21,981 nucleotides of DNA from a virus. Made by a program: the position numbers and the translations under genes. The stretch lies in IMG/VR virus record IMGVR_UViG_3300037502_000854, positions 1-21,981 of that record. One strand, given 5' to 3'. Numbering within the stretch: position 1 is the stretch's first letter; the number at the start of each line of letters is the position of its first letter. The notes under the pieces are model-generated. The model was not told where the DNA came from. It did not search any database and saw only the letters and a program-made list of their open reading frames with translations. Shown in pieces: positions 1,043-20,874 of the stretch.

Positions 1043-1248
1043 TTTCGTTTTCCATGCGGGTTGATTGGTTCAAACTGGTCCATATTTAGACTCATGATCG
1101 GAATCTCGTAAGAGCCGAATGTCAGTCCGCATCCGGCGCAAGTCCTGCGTCTGTAGGTGAAGCCGTATCGTGTGTCCATCCTCGTTTCTTTGACTTCGCT
1201 TCCTGTTCCAATCGGGCAGTTGCAATCTGGGTGATCAAGTCGCTTCAT
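1039..1248 (-). CDS. NrdR-like zinc-ribbon protein (69 aa)
   Basis: The protein is essentially one zinc ribbon. C9 and C11 are followed by a 'VKETRMDTRYGFTYRRRTC' run and the second knuckle C37-A-G-C40, then F-G-S-Y-E. This order (first Cys pair, V-x-(D/E)-(T/S)-R, R-R-R-x-C-x-x-C-G-x-x-F-x-x-Y-E) is the pattern of the N-terminal zinc ribbon of the ribonucleotide-reductase repressor NrdR. The ATP-cone domain of NrdR is absent, and the first knuckle is CxC rather than CxxC. It may bind nucleic acid. A direct role in nrd control is speculative. It sits in the overlapping small-gene chain; its ATG overlaps the stop of the 47-aa gene upstream. Confidence 0.7.
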   Translation of the reverse strand: MKRLDHPDCNCPIGTGSEVKETRMDTRYGFTYRRRTCAGCGLTFGSYEIPIMSLNMDQFEPINPHGKRK

Positions 1249-1388
1249 TCTTCTGCTTCAAAAGGCAATGGTCCAAGTTCTCGCATGAAGTCATCGTCCA
1301 TTTTACAAACCCATGCTTGCCAGTCCCATGTAAACAGCAAGGACACCGCGTTGTCATCTATCTCAACAAACAACTTGACTTGCTTCAC
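1245..1388 (-). CDS. Small hypothetical acidic protein with GTG start (47 aa)
   Basis: A 47-codon frame fills what would otherwise be a gap between two genes. It starts with GTG at 1388, eight bases after AAGGAG, and the GTG overlaps the TGA of the preceding gene (GTGA). Its own TGA overlaps the ATG at 1248 (ATGA). The product begins with a hydrophobic/basic strand (KQVKLFVEI), has a Trp-rich centre (TWDWQAWVC) and an acidic C-terminus (LPFEAEE). No family is recognised. The double overlap and the good SD make this a convincing gene despite its length. Confidence 0.68.
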   Translation of the reverse strand: MKQVKLFVEIDDNAVSLLFTWDWQAWVCKMDDDFMRELGPLPFEAEE

Positions 1389-1810
1389 CGGTTTTTCTCC
1401 TTTAGCTTTGCTTCGATTGCAAGTGAGAATTCGTAATAATCAAAACGAAATTCGTGTTTATTCCAAATATCTTCGATCTCCTCATCCGTCAGCCCGACCC
1501 ATTGGCGTGGTGCGGCGTAGAGCAATTGAATGCTCGGGTCATCGAAATCACATAGACCGTATTCGATTTGCTCGCACTCACCATCAGTATTGACGTACAT
1601 CCACGCCACCGGCTTCTCTGCCTGTTCGATGGCGGTGCGGAGGGCGGTGATTGCGTCGTTGGTCTGCTTGTTGATTCCATCAACGTCAAAACACTCAGCG
1701 TAGTAAGTGTCTTTAATCTGGTCTAAACCTAGAAAACGCTCCGTACCGTTGATCAGCACGTAGTTCTTTTCCAGCGCCTCCAGCGCTTGCTTCATCGCTT
1801 CGATGGTCAT
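1385..1810 (-). CDS. Hypothetical phage protein of the 'MTIEAMKQALEALE...LTDEEI' type (141 aa)
   Basis: The N-terminus (MTIEAMKQALEALEKN), the central helix ending 'ALRTAIEQAEKPVAWMY' and the C-terminal 'GLTDEEIEDIW' are hallmarks of a hypothetical protein common in beta- and gammaproteobacterial phages. In those proteins a repeated helix is followed by a small beta segment (VAWMYVNTDGE) and a terminal helix. The function is unknown. Its SD (GAGAGGTGAGCG) is formed by the last codons of the upstream gene, and its ATG overlaps that gene's stop. A truncated copy of its first twelve codons occurs upstream at 2207-2242. Confidence 0.75.
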   Translation of the reverse strand: MTIEAMKQALEALEKNYVLINGTERFLGLDQIKDTYYAECFDVDGINKQTNDAITALRTAIEQAEKPVAWMYVNTDGECEQIEYGLCDFDDPSIQLLYAAPRQWVGLTDEEIEDIWNKHEFRFDYYEFSLAIEAKLKEKNR

Positions 1811-2202
1811 CGCTCACCTCTCAATTCATCCGTTGTTCTGATGTTCGTCGGAATCGGTAACAATCGCCCGGATTTTGTACGCCATTTCCACTGCATACCG
1901 ACAACGGCTCGGTACAACTCGTACCCGTAGCCGTCATGGTTAAAAACGTGCTCACGGACATCCTCTTCGACCCTGCCGTACAAAAACCCGCCGCACTCGT
2001 CTTGCAACCAGTTGCGAACCACCATGCAGTGCGAACAGGTTTTGTGGTTGGTGAATTCTCCGTCGAACACGAACACATCGGTGTGATACTGCTCGCCGGG
2101 AGCGATGGAGCGAAAACACTCACGGCATTTGTGCGCCGTCTTGGCTTTCTGAATAGAAGTTCGCAGCAGCTCGACGCATTCAACATCATCAATCATGCAC
2201 AT
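1807..2202 (-). CDS. Hypothetical zinc-ribbon protein (131 aa)
   Basis: Two CxxC knuckles (C26-R-E-C29 and C56-S-H-C59) flank a segment 'IAPGEQYHTDVFVFDGEFTNHKT' and should bind one zinc ion. Phage proteins of this form (HKCREC...PGE.Y......DGEF...KTC..C) are widespread but uncharacterised. The C-terminal half is mixed, with several Trp and Tyr residues. The start at 2202 is fixed by GGAGG six bases upstream; that SD lies inside the preceding 17-codon mini-gene. The C-terminal codons (ELRGER, stop) encode the SD of the next gene. Confidence 0.72.
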   Translation of the reverse strand: MCMIDDVECVELLRTSIQKAKTAHKCRECFRSIAPGEQYHTDVFVFDGEFTNHKTCSHCMVVRNWLQDECGGFLYGRVEEDVREHVFNHDGYGYELYRAVVGMQWKWRTKSGRLLPIPTNIRTTDELRGER

Positions 2203-2242
2203 GATTAGCCTCCAGCGCCCGCTTCATTGCTTCAATGCTCAT
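2189..2242 (-). CDS. 17-codon mini-gene, truncated copy of the MTIEAM-type N-terminus
   Basis: The frame encodes MSIEAMKRALEANHVHD. Its first twelve codons match the start of the 141-aa protein at 1385-1810 (30 of 36 bases identical, 1775-1810 versus 2207-2242). It has its own SD (AAGGAG, eight bases before the ATG). Its ATG overlaps the stop of the gene upstream, and it overlaps the start of the next gene by 14 bp. The conserved CTGGAGGC segment provides the SD for that next gene. It looks like a paralogue remnant kept as a translational relay. Whether a peptide is made is unknown. Confidence 0.5.
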   Translation of the reverse strand: MSIEAMKRALEANHVHD

Positions 2243-2436
2243 TTCTTTAACTCCTTAATCGCCGCACGAGCCGGTCGCCACGTTTCGCAATCTTTACAGG
2301 ACGGATCACCGCAGTCTGGCTCTGCGCCTTCGACCAGACCCTCGATGATGGTCACCAACTGCGAGACGATATGCTCAAGCTCCATCATCGTCATTGTTGG
2401 AACGCCTCCGATTGTGCGGGTGAATTTCGGTTTCAT
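2239..2436 (-). CDS. Hypothetical Cys-containing protein (65 aa)
   Basis: A short protein with an amphipathic helix (MMELEHIVSQLVTIIEGL) followed by C42-G-D-P-S-C47-K-D-C50-E-T-W-R-P-A-R, which looks like half of a metal-binding site. Similar 'GDP.C..C..WRPARAAI' endings occur in other phage hypothetical proteins. The start ATG at 2436 has AGAGGTGAGAA directly upstream, written across the end of the preceding gene. The last codons (AAG GAG TTA AAG AAA) provide the SD of the mini-gene downstream. Confidence 0.62.
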   Translation of the reverse strand: MKPKFTRTIGGVPTMTMMELEHIVSQLVTIIEGLVEGAEPDCGDPSCKDCETWRPARAAIKELKK

Positions 2437-2439
2437 TTC

Positions 2440-2682
2440 TCACCTCTGCTTAAAACCAAGACGCCGCATCCCGAGTTCGATCAGCATGGCTGCGTCCTCA
2501 AGGCTGTTCTGACTGCTGCTCATGGCTGTCTGCCACTCGCCACCGACCCGCCTGCCGACCAGACCGACCGTGACGATCTCGCCTGCCTTGGCATCCTCAA
2601 GCCATTGCTCAAGCATTGCAATCGCGTCGGAGTTGTCTGGTGTAGTGGCTTTGATAAATGGTTTGATGTTATCTCGTGTCAT
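2440..2682 (-). CDS. Hypothetical phage protein (80 aa)
   Basis: The pattern is a helix (AIAMLEQWLEDAKAGEI), a beta strand (VTVGLVGRRVGGEW), a polar loop and a C-terminal helix ending in GMRRLGF. This resembles a common phage hypothetical family of about 80 residues with 'L..AK.GEI..VGLVG'. The function is unknown. The ATG overlaps the stop of the preceding gene, and the SD AGAGGTGAGAA precedes it. Its own end (CAG AGG TGA) places the stop codon inside the SD of the next gene. Confidence 0.62.
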   Translation of the reverse strand: MTRDNIKPFIKATTPDNSDAIAMLEQWLEDAKAGEIVTVGLVGRRVGGEWQTAMSSSQNSLEDAAMLIELGMRRLGFKQR

Positions 2683-2873
2683 TTCTCACCTCTTGCTTCA
2701 AGCATGGCGTCTGCCATTCGATAAGCATCATTTGCAATTTCTTTAGTGGTGTCATAAGGACGAACGCTGAATGTTTTGGTCTGCATCGCCTTGGCCGCAA
2801 AGTAGTCCCTAAGCGTCATGCCTTGATATGCCGTGCCCGTTGGAAACGCCGGTCCACCTGTTGGTTTATTCAT
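2679..2873 (-). CDS. Hypothetical protein of the 'GGPAFP...MTLRDYFAAKAM' family (64 aa)
   Basis: The N-terminal 'TGGPAFP' and 'GMTLRDYFAAKAMQ' segments and the terminal helix 'DAYRMADAMLEAR' are characteristic of a widespread prophage and phage protein of unknown function. The ATG at 2873 overlaps the previous stop (ATGA), and the SD AGAGGTGAGAG precedes it. The C-terminal residues ARGEK are translated from the SD of the next gene. Confidence 0.7.
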   Translation of the reverse strand: MNKPTGGPAFPTGTAYQGMTLRDYFAAKAMQTKTFSVRPYDTTKEIANDAYRMADAMLEARGEK

Positions 2874-3130
2874 CTCTCACCTCTTGCTTTCTTGAGTGCT
2901 GCTCGCGCTCTTGTAAACGTCGCATTAAGCTGGTCCCACCCATTTCCATCAGCAGCATCGACAATCTCTTGCAGTGCCTCGAAAAGATCAGGGGCTGCTG
3001 CGATTAGACGGGCATCTGCTGCTTTGACATTGCCGGTCGTGTATTCGGCGAAACTTCCGATCTGAACGTATCGATACTGTCGGCCATACATCGATGGTCT
3101 GTGCTTCCACGGCCCCGGTGTGTAGCTCAT
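2870..3130 (-). CDS. Hypothetical protein of the 'TPGPW...ARLIAAAPDL' family (86 aa)
   Basis: The start 'YTPGPWKHRP', the central 'DARLIAAAPDLFEALQEIV' helix and the basic C-terminal helix match a small phage protein family found very widely in proteobacterial phages. No function is established. The start is at an ATG preceded by GAGGAGAAAATAA, in ATGA overlap with the upstream gene. The C-terminus KKARGER is encoded by the SD region of the downstream gene. Confidence 0.72.
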   Translation of the reverse strand: MSYTPGPWKHRPSMYGRQYRYVQIGSFAEYTTGNVKAADARLIAAAPDLFEALQEIVDAADGNGWDQLNATFTRARAALKKARGER

Positions 3131-3399
3131 TTATTTTCTCCTCGTGCTCTGATTGCTGCGGCGCATTGTCGATTCTCATAATCCTCTCGCTGCATTCCAG
3201 CTTCATTGGTTATGCGGTCATCACACACCTTCGCGCAAGCCTCTCGCTCCTGAGCGATCCAGTTCTCAATGACCCGCATCGCCACCAGCGCATCCGCCTT
3301 CCGCACAAAGTGGATCGTGTCGTTGAAGCTCTTTGATCCTTCGGGTCGGACCGCAAATTGATCGAAGTACATTCGATCCTCGAAGACTTCTAATTTCAT
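3127..3399 (-). CDS. Hypothetical phage protein with 'EREACAKVC...CAAAIRARG' tail (90 aa)
   Basis: The N-terminal half appears to form beta strands (KLEVFEDRMYF, TIHFVRKADALVAM). The C-terminal half carries the signature 'AQEREACAKVCDD' followed by 'RQCAAAIRARGENK'. This tail is a recurring module in many otherwise unrelated small phage proteins, and the gene immediately upstream has a diverged copy of it. C55, C59 and C79 could form a redox or metal site, but no activity is known. The start ATG overlaps the previous stop; the SD is AAGGGG. Confidence 0.7.
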   Translation of the reverse strand: MKLEVFEDRMYFDQFAVRPEGSKSFNDTIHFVRKADALVAMRVIENWIAQEREACAKVCDDRITNEAGMQREDYENRQCAAAIRARGENK

Positions 3400-3671
3400 G
3401 ACTGGCCCCTTGCTCTGATCTTCTTGACCAGATCAAACGCCCATGAAGGCTCGTGATATGACTGGGCGATGTTTTCGATTAATGTGATGCAGGCTTCACG
3501 CTCTGCCTCAACCCCTTCCTGATACCACTTTGCTTTATTGTTCGTGTGGATGCGTTCTTCGATCAGGGCTGCAAAGTGCTCCAGTTCTTTTAGATGGATG
3601 ACGCGGCCCGTGTCGTATTCGTATGGCAGCTTGGACTCTTTCGCCATGCTGATGATGTCGTCTCGTGTCAT
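3396..3671 (-). CDS. Hypothetical phage protein of the 'MTRDDII...ELEHFAAL...EREAC' family (91 aa)
   Basis: The N-terminus MTRDDIISMAKES, the middle 'LKELEHFAALIEER' and the 'AEREACITLIENI' segment identify a common phage hypothetical family whose function is unknown. The C-terminal 'KKIRARGQS' matches the neighbouring gene's 'AAIRARGENK', so the two genes share a tail module. The predicted product is almost entirely helical. The ATG at 3671 is preceded by AGGGGATTGAG, which is formed by the end of the upstream gene. Confidence 0.72.
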   Translation of the reverse strand: MTRDDIISMAKESKLPYEYDTGRVIHLKELEHFAALIEERIHTNNKAKWYQEGVEAEREACITLIENIAQSYHEPSWAFDLVKKIRARGQS

Positions 3672-3672
3672 C

Positions 3673-3915
3673 TCAATCCCCTAGCAGATTGCCGATGTTT
3701 GACTGGGGTCGATACGTCGGTTCCACCAACTCCCGGATCTCTGGTGGGATCTTCGGCAACGGGAACCAACCCACATACCAGTCGTCCTTCCCGTCCCACC
3801 AGCCCGTCGAGGCAATGCCTGCTTTGTTGAGCAGGAGAACCTTCGGGCCTGTCGGACAGTTCGCCATTGATCGGAACATCAGATCAGCGTCTGTTATCGC
3901 CTCCTGGTTGATCAT
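3673..3915 (-). CDS. Hypothetical phage protein (80 aa)
   Basis: The sequence 'CPTGPKVLLLNKAGIASTGWWDGKDDWYVGWFPLPKIPPEI' is recognisable from phage hypothetical proteins, where 'VGWFPLPK.P' is the conserved signature. It is rich in Trp and Pro, probably a small beta fold. The start ATG at 3915 overlaps the previous stop, with GAGG five bases upstream. The function is unknown. Confidence 0.65.
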   Translation of the reverse strand: MINQEAITDADLMFRSMANCPTGPKVLLLNKAGIASTGWWDGKDDWYVGWFPLPKIPPEIRELVEPTYRPQSNIGNLLGD

Positions 3916-4145
3916 GCTGCCCTCATCAACTCTGACTCGATGCGCTCGATCTCTTTGTTCGTGAGCTTGCGCTCAAGCCACGGAGCAGGACGTCCACGCC
4001 GATCCATGATCCTGAACTCACCAACCTCTGCCCATCCGTAGTAGTCCCAGTCGCTTGCAGCGTTGCGGCTGTACGATCCTTGGCTAACGTACACATCAGC
4101 CTCAACCAAGCAAGGGATTCCAGCGATTCGTGTCTCGATTTGCAT
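3912..4145 (-). CDS. Hypothetical phage protein (77 aa)
   Basis: The N-terminus 'MQIETRIAGIPCLVEADVY' and the C-terminal 'RPAPWLERKLTNKEIERIESEL' flank a variable aromatic centre. This layout is known from small phage proteins in early operons; the function is unknown. The start at 4145 is fixed by AGGAG six bases upstream. A 24-bp spacer separates it from the zinc-ribbon gene upstream, one of the few non-overlapping junctions in this block. Confidence 0.68.
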   Translation of the reverse strand: MQIETRIAGIPCLVEADVYVSQGSYSRNAASDWDYYGWAEVGEFRIMDRRGRPAPWLERKLTNKEIERIESELMRAA

Positions 4146-4169
4146 GTTGCTCTCCTGTTGATGAGGGAA

Positions 4170-4355
4170 TCATCCCACACTTTTTATTGTTTGTGTAAAC
4201 TTTTTCGGAATATTTTCTAATCGCTCTTCCGATTCCGATAGAAGATTCCTAACATGGAAGTCATCGCACAGTGGACACAGGTAGATCAGACCGACACTGA
4301 CGCCCTGCGGCTCTCTATGATTGGGGCAAGCTGCTTCCTGGCTTCTGGCTGACAA
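4170..4355 (-). CDS. Small zinc-finger protein with TTG start (61 aa)
   Basis: C10-P-N-H13 and C27-P-L-C30, followed by D-D-F-H34, form a CxxH/CxxC metal site, with a polar helix after it. The frame starts with TTG at 4355. That choice is supported by a strong GGAGG exactly six bases upstream, which lies inside the 3' end of the replication-type gene it overlaps (70-bp overlap). The second half (SESEERLENIPKKF) is hydrophilic. No family is recognised. It could bind DNA or RNA near the replication proteins. An ATG-only gene search would miss it. Confidence 0.55.
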   Translation of the reverse strand: MSARSQEAACPNHREPQGVSVGLIYLCPLCDDFHVRNLLSESEERLENIPKKFTQTIKSVG

Positions 4356-5395: not shown

Positions 5396-5470
5396 CTATA
5401 GGTTTTGCCTAACACCTGTCTCTCTAGACAGACCTCCCCCAGGGTGGAGCCGAGCACTTTTGCGAAGCAC
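5396..5470 (-). CDS. Possible leader peptide (24 codons) under antisense control
   Basis: A GTG at 5470 lies nine bases after GAGGTG and opens a 24-codon frame ending in TAG at 5396. It matters because the SD and the first bases of the start codon fall inside the segment complementary to the candidate antisense RNA. The peptide is basic (starts MLRKSARLHPGGG) and unrecognised. A competing frame starts at an ATG at 5499, spans the same target and runs to 5191, overlapping the next gene. Either could be the translated leader, or neither. The call rests on position and SD only. Confidence 0.3.
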   Translation of the reverse strand: MLRKSARLHPGGGLSRETGVRQNL

Positions 5471-5483
5471 TGGGATTTCCACC
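5469..5483 (-). promoter_or_regulatory. Candidate antisense-RNA target site
   Basis: The minus strand reads GGTGGAAATCCCAGT. This is complementary to the segment ACTGGGATTCTTCCACC of the small RNA at 5727-5743, giving 8 + 7 base pairs flanking a 2-nt bulge in the RNA. The site covers a Shine-Dalgarno-like GAGGTGG and reaches the start of a GTG codon. Pairing would hide a ribosome-binding site in the leader of the replication genes. Confidence 0.5.
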
Positions 5484-5531
5484 TCTCCCACCCTACCATC
5501 CTGTGATAGGGCCAGAGTACCCGGAGGCTGC

Positions 5532-5617
5532 GATTGTTTCGATGTCGGAGTGGTCTACCACCGCTGTCTCCAACATCTACACCAGTCCCTCGCAGACAGG
5601 CTGGTCGGCTCGCAATC
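5532..5617 (-). other. Predicted three-way-junction RNA fold
   Basis: A closing helix GATTG/CAATC (5532-5536 with 5613-5617) encloses two separate hairpins. One is GATGT-GGAG-TGG paired with CCA-CTCC-ACATC (5541-5577). The other is ACCAG-CCT paired with AGG-CTGGT (5581-5605). The fold was found by eye and is symmetric between strands; it is listed on the minus strand because flanking genes are transcribed that way. Its role is unknown, perhaps a leader structure or a processing signal. Confidence 0.35.
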
Positions 5618-5700
5618 AGGGTGAGGATTAGCCGGTGTTTTCTCCCTCGCAGCCCATGCAGGCTCTTGCTATCGTGAGGGGAACGGCTGGAGTGGGGGCG

Positions 5701-5791
5701 AAAAAAAAGCTATCTGCCAAGACCCCGGTGGAAGAATCCCAGTTTGCGGCTGGAACTACCCCTAACGGGGTCGGAGTCTTGATAGATAGCT
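5701..5791 (-). ncRNA. C4 / P4-CI-like antisense RNA candidate
   Basis: On the minus strand an outer helix AGCTATCT/AGATAGCT (5784-5791 with 5708-5715) is continued after a 2x2 internal loop by CAAGAC/GTCTTG. Inside are two hairpins: ACCCC-GTTA-GGGGT (5758-5771) and TTCCAG-CCGCAAA-CTGGGA (5737-5755). After the second comes a partly single-stranded TTCTTCCACC. The 3' arm of the outer helix runs straight into eight T residues (5708-5701). Phage P1/P7 C4 RNA and P4 CI RNA are small structured antisense RNAs processed from the leader of the operon they repress, and they pair with ribosome-binding sites downstream in that leader. This element has the same layout and a matching target at 5469-5483. 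It follows the thyX and Cys-rich genes by 48 bp, with no obvious promoter of its own, so processing of a longer transcript is likely. Confidence 0.6.
5701..5791 (-). terminator. Intrinsic terminator formed by the outer stem of the small RNA
   Basis: The 8-bp stem AGCTATCT/AGATAGCT plus the coaxial 6-bp stem CAAGAC/GTCTTG is followed immediately by eight T residues on the minus strand. It would end transcription coming from the thyX genes. The loop is long (about 52 nt) for a simple terminator, consistent with it being the 3' end of a structured RNA. Confidence 0.6.
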
Positions 5792-5838
5792 CTCAGTCGG
5801 CTTCCACACCAACAAGAACATTGTACAGGTTTACAAAT

Positions 5839-5985
5839 TCACATACAACTGGTGTTGCAAAAAGTCCCTGTACAGCAAGTGGTACAGATCACCATCCTGC
5901 CGTTGACAAAGTATGTATGCGTCACACAGTTGGCAACAGCGATACCTGACATCAACATTCCGACAACAAAGATCAGTTTTTTCAT
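5839..5985 (-). CDS. Small secreted cysteine-rich protein (48 aa)
   Basis: The product starts MKKLIFVVGMLMSGIAVA, a textbook Sec signal peptide with likely cleavage after A18, leaving a mature peptide of about 30 residues beginning N-C. The mature part has six Cys (C20, C34, C37, C38, C43, C47) in the pattern C-x13-C-x2-C-C-x4-C-x3-C, plus many Thr. The start at 5985 follows GGAGA at six bases and overlaps the thyX stop (ATGA). The predicted location is the periplasm or cell surface, probably disulphide-bonded. The function is unknown; superinfection exclusion, toxin or envelope effects are only guesses. Confidence 0.72.
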   Translation of the reverse strand: MKKLIFVVGMLMSGIAVANCVTHTYFVNGRMVICTTCCTGTFCNTSCM

Positions 5986-6620
5986 GCTTGCTCTCCAAAA
6001 AAAGCGTCCATAGTAATCGGCACAACAGTCCGCAACTCAGCCAGGATCAACCCTGCCAGTTGCCTGTGTTCTGCCTGTGTGGTCGGATCTAGCCTTTGCT
6101 TGAGGTAGTGGATCCATGACCTAAGAGTCCCGTTCATATACATCCGACTGCTGGTCAACCCCTCCGGCAACAACACCCTGGCCTGCTCTTTTGCGATGCC
6201 CTGCTTCATCGCCTCGGAGTACAGCCTGTCAGTCTCTTTGATGACCCAGGACTGAACCTGATCCCACCATCTTGCAAGCTCTTCATCCGCAGTCGGGATG
6301 CTGTTCTGCCTGTTCGTGTGATCCTGCATCCTTGCCTGTCTGGGTTGGGGATGCTCTAGTAAGTGAGCACTTGCATACCGTTGGCTGAACTCCTGGAAGC
6401 TGAATGACCGATGCCGCAGGATCTGCCTGCCGATGTCCCTGGTCGTCTCAATCTCCATACAGACGTTAGCCATCTCGAAGGGCGAAACGTGACCATGCTC
6501 CATCAGGTATCGCAGCAACCCTGTCTTGCCGGATGACTGACCTTCTGGATTGCTAACCCTTGCGATGTACAGGATCTGCTGGTCAGCGTCCGGTGTTGCC
6601 CATTGTATTTTTGCTCTCAT
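5982..6620 (-). CDS. thyX: Flavin-dependent thymidylate synthase ThyX
   Basis: ThyX makes dTMP from dUMP with methylene-tetrahydrofolate, FAD and NADPH. The family signature R-H-R-x7-S is present as R69-H70-R71 ... S79, followed by Q-R-Y. The preceding 'EHGHVSPFEM' and the C-terminal 'LPEGLTSSRMYMNGTLRSWIHYLKQRL...QAEHR' are also characteristic. The 212-aa length is normal for phage ThyX. The frame is open to 6749, but the start is put at the ATG at 6620 because it overlaps the upstream stop (ATGA) and gives the usual N-terminus; the extension is Cys/Gly-rich and lies inside the HNH gene. It supplies dTMP for phage DNA synthesis. Confidence 0.95.
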   Translation of the reverse strand: MRAKIQWATPDADQQILYIARVSNPEGQSSGKTGLLRYLMEHGHVSPFEMANVCMEIETTRDIGRQILRHRSFSFQEFSQRYASAHLLEHPQPRQARMQDHTNRQNSIPTADEELARWWDQVQSWVIKETDRLYSEAMKQGIAKEQARVLLPEGLTSSRMYMNGTLRSWIHYLKQRLDPTTQAEHRQLAGLILAELRTVVPITMDAFFGEQA

Positions 6621-6901
6621 TTTGGAACCACCAATCCATCCTCGAACAACACAAGCATGGTCTTGCGCCATGCAGCCTCCCACAACTCTTTGCGCTCTTG
6701 ATAGCTGAGTTTCGACCCCTGATCGATCCCAGCATGACATCCAACACATAGCGCAGCAGAGTAGACATCATGCGCCTTCATCCCCATGCCCTTGCCGTAC
6801 TCTGTCCAATTCGCATGAGCAGCCTGGGTCTCACCCTCCCGGCCACACAGTTGACACGGAAGACTAGCCACCGCTCGCAATAGAGCTTTGTTTCTGTACA
6901 T
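6617..6901 (-). CDS. HNH-type nuclease (DUF1364-like), 94 aa
   Basis: The zinc ligands C16-x2-C19 and C52-x2-C55 and the HNH histidines H29 ('AAHANW') and H56 ('CVGCHAGIDQG') are in the order expected for small phage HNH proteins of the DUF1364 type. The surrounding 'RNKALL', 'YGKGMGMKAHD' and 'LWEAAWRKT' segments fit too. Such proteins sit in nin-like recombination regions and are presumed DNA endonucleases. The start is set at the ATG at 6901, preceded by GAGGTGG; an in-frame upstream ATG at 6964 would add a basic, unrelated extension. It overlaps the previous gene by 38 bp and thyX by 4 bp. Confidence 0.85.
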   Translation of the reverse strand: MYRNKALLRAVASLPCQLCGREGETQAAHANWTEYGKGMGMKAHDVYSAALCVGCHAGIDQGSKLSYQERKELWEAAWRKTMLVLFEDGLVVPK

Positions 6902-9014: not shown

Positions 9015-9211
9015 TCCTAGATCCAAACTTTGTCTGGGTTCCAAGCGCCGCCACAGACGTAACACAAACATGGCGCAAATTCGGGTGGAAACCTATTTCG
9101 GAGAGAACAGATCATGAAGCAAATCGCATCCGCGCTCGTCAAAGCACAGCAAGCATTTGGACCAGCACTCAAGACCAGCGTGAACCCACACTTCCGCAGC
9201 AAATACGCTGA
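9011..9211 (+). CDS. Small phage protein with '[22 protein letters not shown]' motif (66 aa)
   Basis: The N-terminal 30 residues contain a motif of the form FV.VP..ATDVT.TWR.FGW.P, which recurs in small phage proteins of unknown function. The ATG overlaps the previous stop (ATGA). After residue 31 the frame enters the erf gene (98-bp overlap), and the remaining 35 residues look like a shadow of that gene. The real protein may end near 9105 in relatives, with this tail arising from loss of a stop codon. Confidence 0.55.
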
Positions 9212-9668
9212 TCTCGCAGCAGTCGTCGAAGCAGTGATTGATGGCCTCAACAAGAATGGGATCTATCTGACACAACTGACCCACGAGTGCGACAACGGGG
9301 TCATCGTCGAAACCATGCTGATCCATGAGTCGGGTGAAACCCTATCCGGCGGCAAGCTTCACGTTCCTGCAAGCAAGCAAGACGCGCAAGGATACGGCTC
9401 GGCCCTTTCGTACGCTCGTAGATATAGCTTGATGGCTATCACCGGCATAGCTCCAGAAGACGATGACGGTAACGCTGCAAGCAAAACCAAAATGCGTCCG
9501 CTAGATTCAACAGCAGCCGTTAAAACGCTCTCAGAGGCTGCAACGATGGAAGACCTCAAAACCATGTACGCCAAGGCTTTCAAAGCCTTCCAGGGCGATC
9601 CTGAGGCTCTGAAAGCTATTGACGCAGCAAAGGATTCGCGCAAGGCTGAACTGATGGAGATTGCGTAA
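9114..9668 (+). CDS. erf: ERF-family single-strand annealing protein
   Basis: ERF proteins anneal complementary single strands in phage recombination (P22 Erf type). The family core is clear: '[22 protein letters not shown]' near residue 20, '[18 protein letters not shown]' in the middle, and '[35 protein letters not shown]' near residues 88-122. The C-terminal 50 residues are helical and variable, as usual. The ATG at 9114 is preceded by GGAGAGAACAGATC. The stop TAA overlaps the start of the exonuclease gene by one base (TAATG), the usual pairing of an annealing protein with a YqaJ exonuclease. Confidence 0.93.
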
Positions 9669-10267
9669 TGGAACAGCGAACCGACGAATGGATCAATGCC
9701 AGACTCGGTTCTGCTACCGCATCTCGCATGAACGATGCGCTAGCAGGCTCAGAAACTGCGGCCAGACGGAACTACCTGATCCAGCTTGTGACAGAGAGAC
9801 TCACCGGCCAGCAACAGGATTCCTTCTCATCAGCAGCAATGCAAAGAGGGACAGACTTGGAACCTGTCGCACGAATGGCGTATGAGTCCAAAAATGGATT
9901 CGTAGATAAAACAGGCTTTCACAAACACCCGTCTATAGAGTGGTTTGGTGCTTCGCCGGATGGTTTGGTAGGGGATGATGGTCTGGTAGAGATCAAATGC
10001 CCACACTCAACAACCCATGTGGACTACATCCTAGAAGGCAAAGTCCCGACAAAGTACAAGCGGCAGATGCTGGCTCAACTGGCCTGCACTGGTCGCAAGT
10101 GGTGCGATTTTGTGTCGTTCGACAACAGGCTTCCAGAGCACCTGCAACTGTTCGTGGTCAGGTTTGAGCCAAAGCCAGAGGAGATCGCAAAGCTAGAAGA
10201 AGGTGTGATCAAGTTTCTCAACGATGTTCAACAGGAGTTCAACAGATGCCAGTCGTTTACGAAGTGA
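9668..10267 (+). CDS. YqaJ-type phage recombination exonuclease
   Basis: This is a lambda-exonuclease-fold protein that resects double-stranded ends to create substrates for the annealing protein. Visible family features are 'RTDEWINARLGSATASRM' at the N-terminus, 'AAMQRGTDLEPVARMAYE' (E65), and the catalytic core 'GASPDGLVGDDGLVEIKCP' with D98, E108 and K110 (PD-(D/E)XK). The 199-aa length is normal. It is directly coupled to erf (TAATG), and its 3' end overlaps the SSB-like gene by 22 bp. Confidence 0.93.
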   Translation: MEQRTDEWINARLGSATASRMNDALAGSETAARRNYLIQLVTERLTGQQQDSFSSAAMQRGTDLEPVARMAYESKNGFVDKTGFHKHPSIEWFGASPDGLVGDDGLVEIKCPHSTTHVDYILEGKVPTKYKRQMLAQLACTGRKWCDFVSFDNRLPEHLQLFVVRFEPKPEEIAKLEEGVIKFLNDVQQEFNRCQSFTK

Positions 10268-10729: not shown

Positions 10730-11174
10730 CGAATGTCTGAAAGTGTGGCAAGCCTTGGAGAAATTCCAATCGCTTGTCGCACAGTTCCTGAGCCAATACA
10801 GCAGCATCATGCGTTTTTACAGCCTCGACAGTCTTGGGACCAATCGAACCGTCTTTCGTGGCTCCTACGCATTCCTGGAGCATCCTGGAGGCTCTGGCAA
10901 CACCAGAGTTCACCGCAAAGTCAAACACGGCATAGTCAACCCCAGGAGGCAAGTCATCGCCTCGAACACGATCCCAATAGTTCTTCCGATAAAACGGCTT
11001 GACCGTCTCAACCGTTAGATCGCGCATATCCTGTTCTGTTACTTCTTTGCCAAGATATTCTTCCCATGCTGCCTTAGTGACTCCGAGGTTAGTGATGCCA
11101 CCTGGATCAGACGGGTGTGCAACGAATCCACCCTCGTGCTTGATCACCATTTGAAAGCAAATATCAAACTTCAC
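10668..11174 (-). CDS. Endolysin, glycoside hydrolase family 108 lysozyme
   Basis: The N-terminal 'MVIKHEGGFVAHPSDPGGITNLGVTKAAWEEYLG' is the GH108 signature, with catalytic E14 in H-E-G-G. 'VKPFYRKNYWDRV' and 'AVFDFAVNSGVARASRMLQ' follow, and a C-terminal peptidoglycan-binding-type segment 'DGSIGPKTVEAV' completes the usual architecture. The 168-aa length is normal. It cleaves peptidoglycan at lysis. There is no clear signal or SAR helix, so release would depend on the holin encoded upstream (4-bp overlap). The 3' end converges with DUF3310 without a visible terminator. Confidence 0.92.
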   Translation of the reverse strand: MKFDICFQMVIKHEGGFVAHPSDPGGITNLGVTKAAWEEYLGKEVTEQDMRDLTVETVKPFYRKNYWDRVRGDDLPPGVDYAVFDFAVNSGVARASRMLQECVGATKDGSIGPKTVEAVKTHDAAVLAQELCDKRLEFLQGLPHFQTFARGWTRRVLEVAKAAQEMTK

Positions 11175-18690: not shown

Positions 18691-19453
18691 ACCGATAGGT
18701 TTTGTCTGCGGTACTGTTTGCAAAGTGATTGACGGTTGCCTGACCTTGCGTCTGATTGGATGCGTAGACATCCGACGTTGAAGATTCAGACACCATCATT
18801 ATCGTAGCGATTACAGACGGAGTTGCTGGCCTCGTTGGGGTCGAGGCTGTAGGCAGATGCTCCAGTTTTACTGCTGTATTTGTGGTTGCCCACATGATCT
18901 GAACATAATCTCCAGCGTCCAGATCAACAAAGAAATTCAGCGCGGCAATAACATGACCATCAACAGATCCATGCCGCTCATTGATAGAAAACCTGCTATT
19001 GCTGTTTGCGATGTCTGATCCGTTTTTACGGAACCAAACATCTACGTCTTGGATCTGCGAATCAGCATTAGCAAACTGAGCAGAAAACTGTAGGTTGTAG
19101 ACACCAGGACTGGTAACAGTGATCTGCGAGTTTGAAACAACAGACACACCATTGCTGAAGTCTGTCGTGCTGAACGACATCGCATAGGCAGCAGTTGTCG
19201 TGGTAGCAGACTGGTCTGTGTCGTCCTGAAACGCTCCATACGGCACACCATCAGCAGAAGCAGCAGCAGAGTAGGGTGCAAACAGGATGATGCTGTCATC
19301 GCTAATTCGCTCATCGTACAGGGTCGTACTGGTCGCACCACCTGTGTCGAGAGTAATCAACCCGACAGAGTTGATCTTGCCATCCAGAATCCGGTTGACA
19401 ATCTCAGATACATCCCGAGGTGTTCCACCTTGCTGCGGTAACCTGCGGAACAT
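18674..19453 (-). CDS. Structural protein with C1q/TNF-like beta domain (259 aa)
   Basis: The N-terminus 'RLPQQGGTPRDVSEIVNRILDGKINSVGLITL' is a conserved virion-anchoring segment in environmental phages. It is followed by 'ILFAPYSAAASADGVPYGAFQDDTDQSATTTTAA'. The next part ('GVYNLQFSAQFANADSQIQDVDVWFRKNGSDIANSNSRFSI....AALNFFVDLDAGDYVQIMWATTNTAVKLEHLP') has the jelly-roll strand order of C1q/TNF-like domains, common in trimeric fibres and decorations. The ATG at 19453 overlaps the upstream TAA (TAATG). Confidence 0.7.
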   Translation of the reverse strand: MFRRLPQQGGTPRDVSEIVNRILDGKINSVGLITLDTGGATSTTLYDERISDDSIILFAPYSAAASADGVPYGAFQDDTDQSATTTTAAYAMSFSTTDFSNGVSVVSNSQITVTSPGVYNLQFSAQFANADSQIQDVDVWFRKNGSDIANSNSRFSINERHGSVDGHVIAALNFFVDLDAGDYVQIMWATTNTAVKLEHLPTASTPTRPATPSVIATIMMVSESSTSDVYASNQTQGQATVNHFANSTADKTYRYVVLG

Positions 19454-20874
19454 TAACGGCCACCCACCGCTTTGATTTCAACATCAACACCAACAGCGGT
19501 AATCCAGGTTTCTGTCGGAGTCAGGCTTACCCTGTGGTACTTACCACGGGATCTGAGTGGAATCCTGTTCTCACTATCAGCAGCAACAGGAGATGAATAG
19601 CTGATATTGCCATCCAGACGATAACGCGCTGCAACCTTGACCGTAGCTGACCCATTATCAACAATAGGTCTGGCAAGCGTCAGAATCGTCTCTGTGGCTT
19701 CCGTTTCAATGTCGCCTGTAGTGAGCACAGCCGTTTGATTAGCGCCGCCAAACGTCACCAATCGATCAGCCTCAACCCCACCTAGAACCAGCTTGCCACC
19801 GGCCCAGAGACGAGAATCCAGCGTTGCTGGCAAGGCATCAATACTCGATGAGATATTGGCAAGCTGCTCCAGCGTATAACTTGCAGTCGCAAGTGTAGAT
19901 ACATAATCAGCGGTAGTGTTGGCATGGCTCCACTTGTCCACCGAGTAGTTGTAAATCAACAATTGCTGAATGTTGAAAATATCACGGAAGCACCAAACCA
20001 CAACCTTGTTAACCGGATCGACTGCTGCTGACATCTTGTCAAACTGTGCCGGATCAGCATTATCGTAAAACCACCGATCAACCACCTCGTTCCCGATACC
20101 CTTGACCGTCTGACCATCGGTCACAAAGAATCCATCATCACTCAAGAAGTAAGTCAGCGGTCCAGACTGAACTACAGACCGAGACTCGTAACAGCCGAGG
20201 TTGCGAGCGATGATGTCAAACTGGAAGAACAGCGGAGAGCCGATATACGTCATCCGCGCAATTGCTCTTTCCAGCAGAACAATCCCAAACTCACCACCAG
20301 TCAGACCACGGATTTCGCCACCGTCAGCGATCACCTGAGAATCAGACTGGCTTCCAGCACCAGGAGTCCAATCCGTCTCATCGTTGATGTCCGACCAGTA
20401 GACCGTAGAAATCTCACTAGCAGTCTTGGCTGCAACCACGAAATCCCGGACAACCGTCACAAACTGAGCAGTGGGCGCAGCAGCAGCAACATCAGCGAAT
20501 GCCGTACTCGATCCCATGTCCCAGGCTTGGATCTTGTCTATTCCATTCGCCGCCAGAACAACAGCACCAAACTGTGCTGTCGTCCACAGAGTCGTGGTGG
20601 AGTAAGCAGTTGACACCCTACTGACATCATCCATCGACGCATCAGCAGGATCAAACTTAAACAGCTTTGTCGGCCCGGCAGCAAAAAGGGTGGTGGTTGT
20701 ACCCTGCCTGCCGATAAAACTCGTCAGAAGGCTTTCTGAGGCTGTAGAAGAGAGGTTTGCATTAGATGGTATCGGACCATACCCTGACGCGACAGGGAGG
20801 CAGTTTAGAGCCTCTGTCAGCCCTCCTGCGATACCCGGTCGGTCAGGTGTCCACTTACCAAACGCAATTCTCAT
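19453..20874 (-). CDS. Tail accessory protein, P22 gp10-like beta-propeller candidate (473 aa)
   Basis: Repeated strand motifs suggest a propeller: 'TKLFKFD', 'IDKIQAWD', 'STVYWSDINDETDW', 'TYFLSDDGFFVTDG' and 'VVVWCFRD...LLIYNYSVDKWS'. The strongest conserved block is 'GEFGIVLLERAIARMTYIGSPLFFQFDIIARNLGC' near residue 194. The length of 473 equals that of P22 gp10 (472), a tail stabilisation protein, and the position after small virion genes fits. The family link is by length, motif and context, not by alignment. Start ATG 20874 overlaps the stop of the 47-aa gene. Confidence 0.6.
   Translation of the reverse strand: MRIAFGKWTPDRPGIAGGLTEALNCLPVASGYGPIPSNANLSSTASESLLTSFIGRQGTTTTLFAAGPTKLFKFDPADASMDDVSRVSTAYSTTTLWTTAQFGAVVLAANGIDKIQAWDMGSSTAFADVAAAAPTAQFVTVVRDFVVAAKTASEISTVYWSDINDETDWTPGAGSQSDSQVIADGGEIRGLTGGEFGIVLLERAIARMTYIGSPLFFQFDIIARNLGCYESRSVVQSGPLTYFLSDDGFFVTDGQTVKGIGNEVVDRWFYDNADPAQFDKMSAAVDPVNKVVVWCFRDIFNIQQLLIYNYSVDKWSHANTTADYVSTLATASYTLEQLANISSSIDALPATLDSRLWAGGKLVLGGVEADRLVTFGGANQTAVLTTGDIETEATETILTLARPIVDNGSATVKVAARYRLDGNISYSSPVAADSENRIPLRSRGKYHRVSLTPTETWITAVGVDVEIKAVGGR

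Follow-up and report, generated by a model that had tools for sequence, protein, structure and literature searches.

What might explain why unrelated small proteins of a phage end in nearly the same residues? The question is raised by small genes that form a chain between 5303 and 61 on the minus strand of a stretch of 21,981 bases of virus record IMGVR_UViG_3300037502_000854, referred to here as the window. Five of these genes end in IRARGQS, IRARGENK, KKARGER, LEARGEK and ELRGER. We propose, with a probability of roughly two in three, that the genes are cassettes set on standard joints, and that crossovers inside the joints swap neighbors without breaking their translational coupling. The cassettes would be linked by a translational joint of about 18 nt, GCAAGRGG......ATGA (the RGE type), in which one stretch of DNA would provide the last residues of the upstream protein, a strong Shine-Dalgarno (SD) sequence (GAGGTGA pairs with the 16S 3' end) and a stop-start overlap, through which the next gene would be translated by termination-reinitiation. 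The chain contains the following features, with tails given up to the stop codon:

3396 to 3671, minus strand: small gene, tail IRARGQS; the codons at its end form the SD of gene 3127-3399 (AGCAAGGGGCCAGTC followed by ATGA); next start at 3399
3127 to 3399, minus strand: small gene, tail IRARGENK; SD GAGGAG for gene 2870-3130; next start at 3130
2870 to 3130, minus strand: small gene, phrog_1273, tail KKARGER; next start at 2873
2870 to 2887, minus strand: RGE joint GCAAGAGGTGAGAGATGA, joining genes 2870-3130 and 2679-2873
2679 to 2873, minus strand: small gene, phrog_2201 C-terminal part, tail LEARGEK; next start at 2682
2679 to 2696, minus strand: RGE joint GCAAGAGGTGAGAAATGA, joining genes 2679-2873 and 2440-2682
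2440 to 2682, minus strand: small gene, MTRDNIKPF to LGFKQR, with the next ATG 3 nt past its stop; found behind many unrelated genes in relatives
2433 to 2447, minus strand: joint DNA AGAGGTGAGAAATGA in the other reading frame, with the TGA stop lying in the SD; tail KQR
2239 to 2436, minus strand: small gene, MKPKFTR to KELKK, followed by a short remnant open reading frame (ORF)
1807 to 2202, minus strand: small gene, tail ELRGER; next start at 1810; relatives in loci L429 (ELRGEK) and L430 (ELRGKE)
1807 to 1821, minus strand: joint AGAGGTGAGCGATGA, with one mismatch, joining genes 1807-2202 and 1385-1810
1385 to 1810, minus strand: small gene, MTIEAMKQ to LKEKNR, ending in a second joint type with a GTGA overlap (CTAAAGGAGAAAAACCG followed by GTGA; AAAGGAGAAAAACCG followed by GTGA)

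At each of the five tails the stop codon overlaps the next ATG as a 4-nt ATGA, and the SD falls within the upstream gene's 3' end, as in translationally coupled overlapping genes. The sequence-only reading had claimed just this, that every tail encodes the SD of the next gene and every next ATG overlaps the stop, and it was right at all five junctions. It had also placed the tails on successive genes; the tails stand but the succession does not, since genes 2440-2682 and 2239-2436 sit between the LEARGEK gene and the ELRGER gene. The 15-mer AGAGGTGAGARATGA has five matches in the window with two or fewer mismatches (three exact, one with one mismatch and one, at 11171, with two), where 100 shuffles average 0.12. 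An SD-core repeat lies a few bases upstream of many starts that belong to different families. The GAGGTGA joints of the window have a predicted 16S-end pairing of -11.7 to -11.9 kcal/mol, and the IRARGQS (AAGGGG) and IRARGENK (GAGGAG) joints have weaker or different SDs, at -7.2 and -8.9 kcal/mol. A second recurrent joint is found in relatives, AAGGAGAARAACMS followed by ATGA, with tails LKEKNR or LKEKNT (the KEKN type), and its window copy lies at 1385-1402 on the minus strand. Mean 16S-end pairing is -10.8 kcal/mol for RGE joints (n=230), -8.55 for KEKN joints (n=163), -7.65 for other ATGA junctions (n=1328) and -5.77 for shuffled 20-mers.

The junction of genes 2440-2682 and 2239-2436 carries the same 15-mer DNA, AGAGGTGAGAAATGA, in a different frame (AAG CAG AGG TGA gaa ATG), and is the best internal evidence that the DNA, and not the peptide, is conserved; the sequence-only reading had overlooked this copy. 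The sequence AGAGGTGAGMRATGA occurs at 159 distinct sites in 423 loci: 63 close an upstream gene as an ATGA overlap, 35 have the TGA inside the SD and 61 have no upstream frame or a short one. Where the TGA lies inside the SD and an ORF follows (34 sites), 23 belong to relatives of the LGFKQR gene and 11 have other tails. Codon choice points the same way. Across 147 AIRARGxx genes the Arg of the SD is AGR in 145/147, compared with 67/147 for the Arg two residues upstream and 196/844 for other Arg codons; the tail Glu is GAG in 83/87 (674/1336 elsewhere) and the tail Gly is GGT in 87/147 (131/613 elsewhere). The bias at the SD Arg, together with the use of the same DNA in two frames, bears out the earlier suggestion that the C-termini are alike because the DNA has a second job.

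The genes on either side of the joints are interchangeable in relatives. Genes were called with a purpose-written dynamic-programming caller (minimum 38 codons), not a standard program, and the resulting data set holds 1721 non-redundant ATGA junctions in 343 loci, 272 of them RGE-class; loci L426-L459 were left out of the statistics and inspected by reading only. Single-linkage clustering of the proteins placed genes 2870, 3127 and 3396 in a single family and was abandoned in favor of pairwise tests. In the 21 loci with relatives of gene 2870, the joint precedes several unrelated genes. The 80 relatives of gene 2440 retained out of 98 lie at 53 distinct junctions and are followed by many different genes, and the genes ahead of them end in AIRARGER, MLKARGEK, LKKARGER, AIRARGNT and others. 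Among the RGE-class junctions, the family of gene 2440 has, as downstream gene, 21 distinct upstream contexts in 30 junctions. The same upstream gene is seen before different downstream genes, and the reverse, and conserved short DNA is thus found at junctions of non-homologous neighbors. Locus L356 matches the window at 91.9% and 86.8% on two sides, with 694 nt extra in L356 between them; the other-frame joint lies at one side of the extra DNA and the ATGAAACC start at the other.

Neighbor turnover differs among classes of junction. When homologues 88-99% identical are compared, the next gene differs at a rate of 0.72 for RGE exits (90 genes), 0.78 for the other-frame joint (27) and 0.50 for KEKN (36), against 0.26 for other ATGA junctions (381), 0.34 for other tight junctions (353) and 0.44 for spaced genes (274). 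With homologues of the retrieval genes left out, the RGE family mean is 0.76 (7 families) versus 0.27 (99 families; p=0.0021), and RGE turnover also exceeds that of all classes but KEKN and other-frame (p=0.0064); the one other-frame family left after this removal had no neighbor switch. In the 75-88% identity band the RGE excess is borderline (4 families, p=0.053), and in the 60-75% band it is not significant (5 families, p=0.23).

The joint bases also indicate where exchange falls. Two sets of pairs were drawn from the 272 RGE-class junctions: 124 pairs (84 junctions) in which the same downstream gene follows unrelated upstream genes, and a mirror set of 139 pairs (97 junctions). At bases -6 to -1 from the start, same-downstream pairs match at 0.785 versus 0.627 in within-locus shuffles (0/1000), and unrelated junctions of the same loci match at 0.560 (314 pairs). 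At bases -20 to -15, mirror pairs match at 0.907 versus 0.695 in shuffles (0/1000), and same-downstream pairs at 0.68 versus 0.659 (186/1000). The match of the right half holds without the 2440 family (48 pairs, 0.787 versus 0.617, 0/1000). It is also seen when the upstream tails are of different types (67 pairs, 0.843, a value with no shuffle control); for this segregation result, pairs with different tail types argue against distant homology among the upstream genes. As judged from these comparisons, the left half of the joint tends to go with the upstream gene and the two final codons with the downstream gene, so exchanges fall inside the joint; split inheritance of this kind places the crossover inside the conserved sequence. 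The sequence-only reading had asked whether changes of gene order coincide with such junctions. They do, by the interchangeable neighbors and the turnover, with the exchange point inside the joint.

Joints also appear to be exchanged like with like. In 981 pairs that have the same downstream gene and unrelated upstream genes, with weighted counts compared with a permutation that ignores phage relatedness, RGE-RGE pairs number 23.6 versus 13.5 expected and KEKN-KEKN pairs 8.7 versus 1.7 (0/2000 each), and mixed RGE/KEKN pairs are rare (4.2 versus 9.6 expected, 3/2000). Joint-type pairing among unrelated junction pairs of the same loci is near expectation. Exchange guided by homology predicts such a pattern, unlike selection for any good SD; distant, undetected homology among the upstream genes could contribute to the excess.

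How could exchange at the joint operate? A crossover within it, at about -14 to -7 from the ATG, would exchange everything downstream, and a second crossover would limit the exchange to a whole cassette. With nearly identical joint DNA at unrelated junctions, the reading frame, the SD spacing and the coupling would remain intact. Of the tail, A-R would stay behind with the upstream gene, and the two final codons (E-R, E-K, Q-A, N-T etc.) would come with the downstream gene. The joint would serve as microhomology for an annealing recombinase of the phage, for instance the ERF/YqaJ pair encoded in the window. The longest identical run between unrelated junctions has a median of 10 nt at RGE joints versus 5 nt at other ATGA junctions, and among the runs common to unrelated RGE joints 34% are at least 12 nt and 12% at least 16 nt. 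The candidate genes for exchange, followed by two further genes identified in the window, are:

9114 to 9668, plus strand: ERF single-strand annealing protein, PF04404, E 2.9e-23; candidate agent of exchange
9668 to 10267, plus strand: YqaJ exonuclease, PF09588, E 1.3e-29; adjoins ERF
5982 to 6749, minus strand: ThyX-type thymidylate synthase, PF02511
7058 to 7501, minus strand: NinB, PF05772

It is plausible that the ERF/YqaJ pair performs the exchange at the joints. An Erf protein of phage D3 is reported to recombine diverged DNAs (PMC3945230). Comparison of the loci demonstrates the joint, its encoding of the SD, the use of the same DNA in two frames, the interchangeable neighbors, the split inheritance and the like-with-like exchange. 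A fuller account, in which the cassette system has at least two exchange types (RGE and KEKN), each gene's two final codons are by descent part of the gene that follows, and the C-terminal codons that encode the SD act as adapters for annealing recombination, is one on which we are evenly divided.

Could these patterns have arisen by convergence only? A strong SD would then evolve separately at each junction, illegitimate recombination would strike anywhere and be followed by selection, and the tails would be a by-product. We consider this unlikely, though far from negligible. Enrichment at every class of start, short joint homology and the frequency of ATGA overlaps speak for it; the first two, and the other points given here, weigh against exchange within the joints. 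The loci were retrieved with genes and patterns of this very chain, the sample being the matches listed, and the turnover comparison comes down to 7 RGE families once the retrieval genes are left out. The ends of DNA-homology blocks (2897 in all) cluster at gene starts: of the 1435 upstream blocks, 25.4% stop at 0 to +5 of a start versus 2.2% at random. The enrichment is found at starts of every class (4.4-5.9x; RGE 5.7x, spaced 4.4x), and therefore boundary exchange is general; as a measure of whether breakpoints concentrate at the joints, RGE at 5.7x stands beside 4.4-4.9x at other gene boundaries. Only 32/120 clean insertion or deletion events matched the joint pattern used, a rough figure since the pattern missed the other-frame joint and accepts some non-RGE sites. 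The right half of the joint is partly common in same-upstream pairs too (0.691 versus 0.621, 5/1000), and therefore the split is a tendency and not absolute. The joint homology is short, its median run of 10 nt falling below the minimal pairing segment of 23-27 bp quoted for Red-beta (PMC3945230), although for RecET infrequent exchange over 5-13 bp is quoted (PMC2327257). ATGA overlaps with the SD in the upstream gene are moreover common in prokaryotes (PMC6728339). What convergence does not predict is that RGE and KEKN joints, both of which carry an SD, are exchanged like with like, that the last two codons match the downstream gene, or that neighbor turnover is higher at RGE joints.

Selection on the tail as a protein motif, for instance a degradation or interaction signal, is an explanation to which we give almost no weight, although part of the tail does behave in this way. 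Overlap by ATGA is found in 171 of 188 AIRAR-tailed genes, with a nearby start in 10 and no called next gene in 7; this last class included misses of the gene caller, since on re-reading by eye 4 of the 7 still have ATGA, and G-E-x is kept in 0 of the other 3. Among 80 listed matches to gene 2679, 69 have the overlap, 5 another nearby start and 6 no nearby start; of these 6 only L212 keeps RGE, encoded by CGT GGC GAG, with no SD. The A-R ahead of RGE is kept without a next start in several of these relatives (L167, L208, L212), which suggests that this part is inherited with the protein and that the tail is therefore partly protein-level. LGFKQR is likewise retained in L352 and L356, where no start comes after. 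The sequence-only reading had named retention of RARGE without an overlapping start as a sign of selection on the protein alone; the A-R part behaves so in several genes, and the G-E-x part, lost in all three AIRAR genes without ATGA, does not. A protein motif would also not confine the codon bias to the SD Arg or place the same DNA in two frames. The repeat could also be a translational operator or small-RNA target, with one phage regulator binding a common start region. The same sequence does stand at several starts, and such a role was left open for the start-associated sequence (SAS) by the authors on cluster K (PMC3203893). However, beyond the SD core the sequence changes with the neighbor (TGAGAR, AAACAC, CAAGC, CCAGTC), joint types are mixed within the single window chain and no Rfam family was found in the window, and we regard an operator as very improbable. 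Cassettes exchanged at standard joints remain our preferred explanation.

Several further observations concern the chain and its surroundings. A short ORF (MSIEAMKRALEANHVHD, then stop) at 2194-2242 on the minus strand, between genes 2239 and 1807, begins with 35 nt that are 86% identical to the start of gene 1385-1810 (MTIEAMKQALEA), a similarity that suggests the remains of a truncated gene start at the junction. L429 and L430 have different sequence ahead of the same downstream gene, with only CTAATC before the ATG in common. The genes from 2501 in L437, L439 and L440 are 81% identical to window gene 3396-3671 over the first 37 residues and have a different C-terminus (DEMEMPKQEPK) and no overlapping start, a pattern resembling a swap of the distal half within the gene. 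Gene 2440-2682 has no family match in PHROGs or Pfam. Rfam and tRNA searches of the window gave no match; positions 5400-5830, which lack an Rfam match, fold somewhat better than shuffles (z -2.2) and are a possible non-coding RNA. The structural protein at 19453-20874 (minus strand) is closest to Methylophilales phage Venkman (49%) and to phages of the Manatee Spring metagenome, and the ERF at 9114-9668 (plus strand) is closest to that of Methylophilales phage MEP301; a betaproteobacterial host is a guess. A collection of isolate phages gave no match for protein 3127 and 8 weak matches for protein 2870, and a genome scan found 3 contigs from metagenome assemblies, labelled Armatimonadota, Verrucomicrobiota and Rhodoferax, labels that cannot fix the host.

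How does the joint compare with known systems? PeSL (promoter-terminator) elements of T4-type phages reportedly consist of a promoter and a stem-loop, and the title of the paper on them says that they mediate modular shuffling. They resemble the joint in being a repeated element at gene junctions and differ in that the joint is coding DNA. Window positions 1200-4200 have no excess of promoters or terminators (1 promoter-like sequence with 2.5 expected, 3 terminator-like with 2.3 expected). The SAS of cluster K mycobacteriophages is a 13-bp sequence, GGGATAGGAGCCC, which has 0 matches in the window with two or fewer mismatches. The SAS (PMC3203893) is like the joint a short SD-core repeat, lying in one orientation just upstream of the starts of many non-structural genes from different families. 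The joint differs in being coding, in running into an ATGA overlap, in having two types and in its split inheritance; the passages on SAS do not take up exchange at the sites. With coupled overlapping pairs (PMC6728339) the joint has in common the 4-nt AUGA overlap and the SD in the upstream 3' end; unlike them, the RGE joint is common to unrelated genes, and other ATGA junctions in the loci lack a common joint. Short conserved boundary sequences of mosaic phages, which could target homologous exchange according to statements in PMC3974807 and PMC2327257, are also short conserved DNA at gene boundaries. By contrast, the boundary here encodes a C-terminus and an SD, recurs within one genome and has two exchange-compatible types.

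In the portions of the open-access literature available to us, we found no description of a C-terminal joint that encodes an SD and is inherited in two halves. Coupling through an SD in the tail is ordinary. What is new is a modular, two-type coding joint with split inheritance, which combines known boundary and start-associated features. Swaps of single genes without damage to the operon are usually explained by random joining followed by selection. A recurrent joint reveals which half came from which parent, and this makes the boundary-sequence idea directly testable. If the fuller account with two exchange types is true, the common tail on unrelated proteins is a scar of assembly. For annotation the joint carries a warning: when small phage proteins are unrelated but have a C-terminal motif in common, the motif can reflect a signal for translation and a scar of assembly instead of a protein motif.

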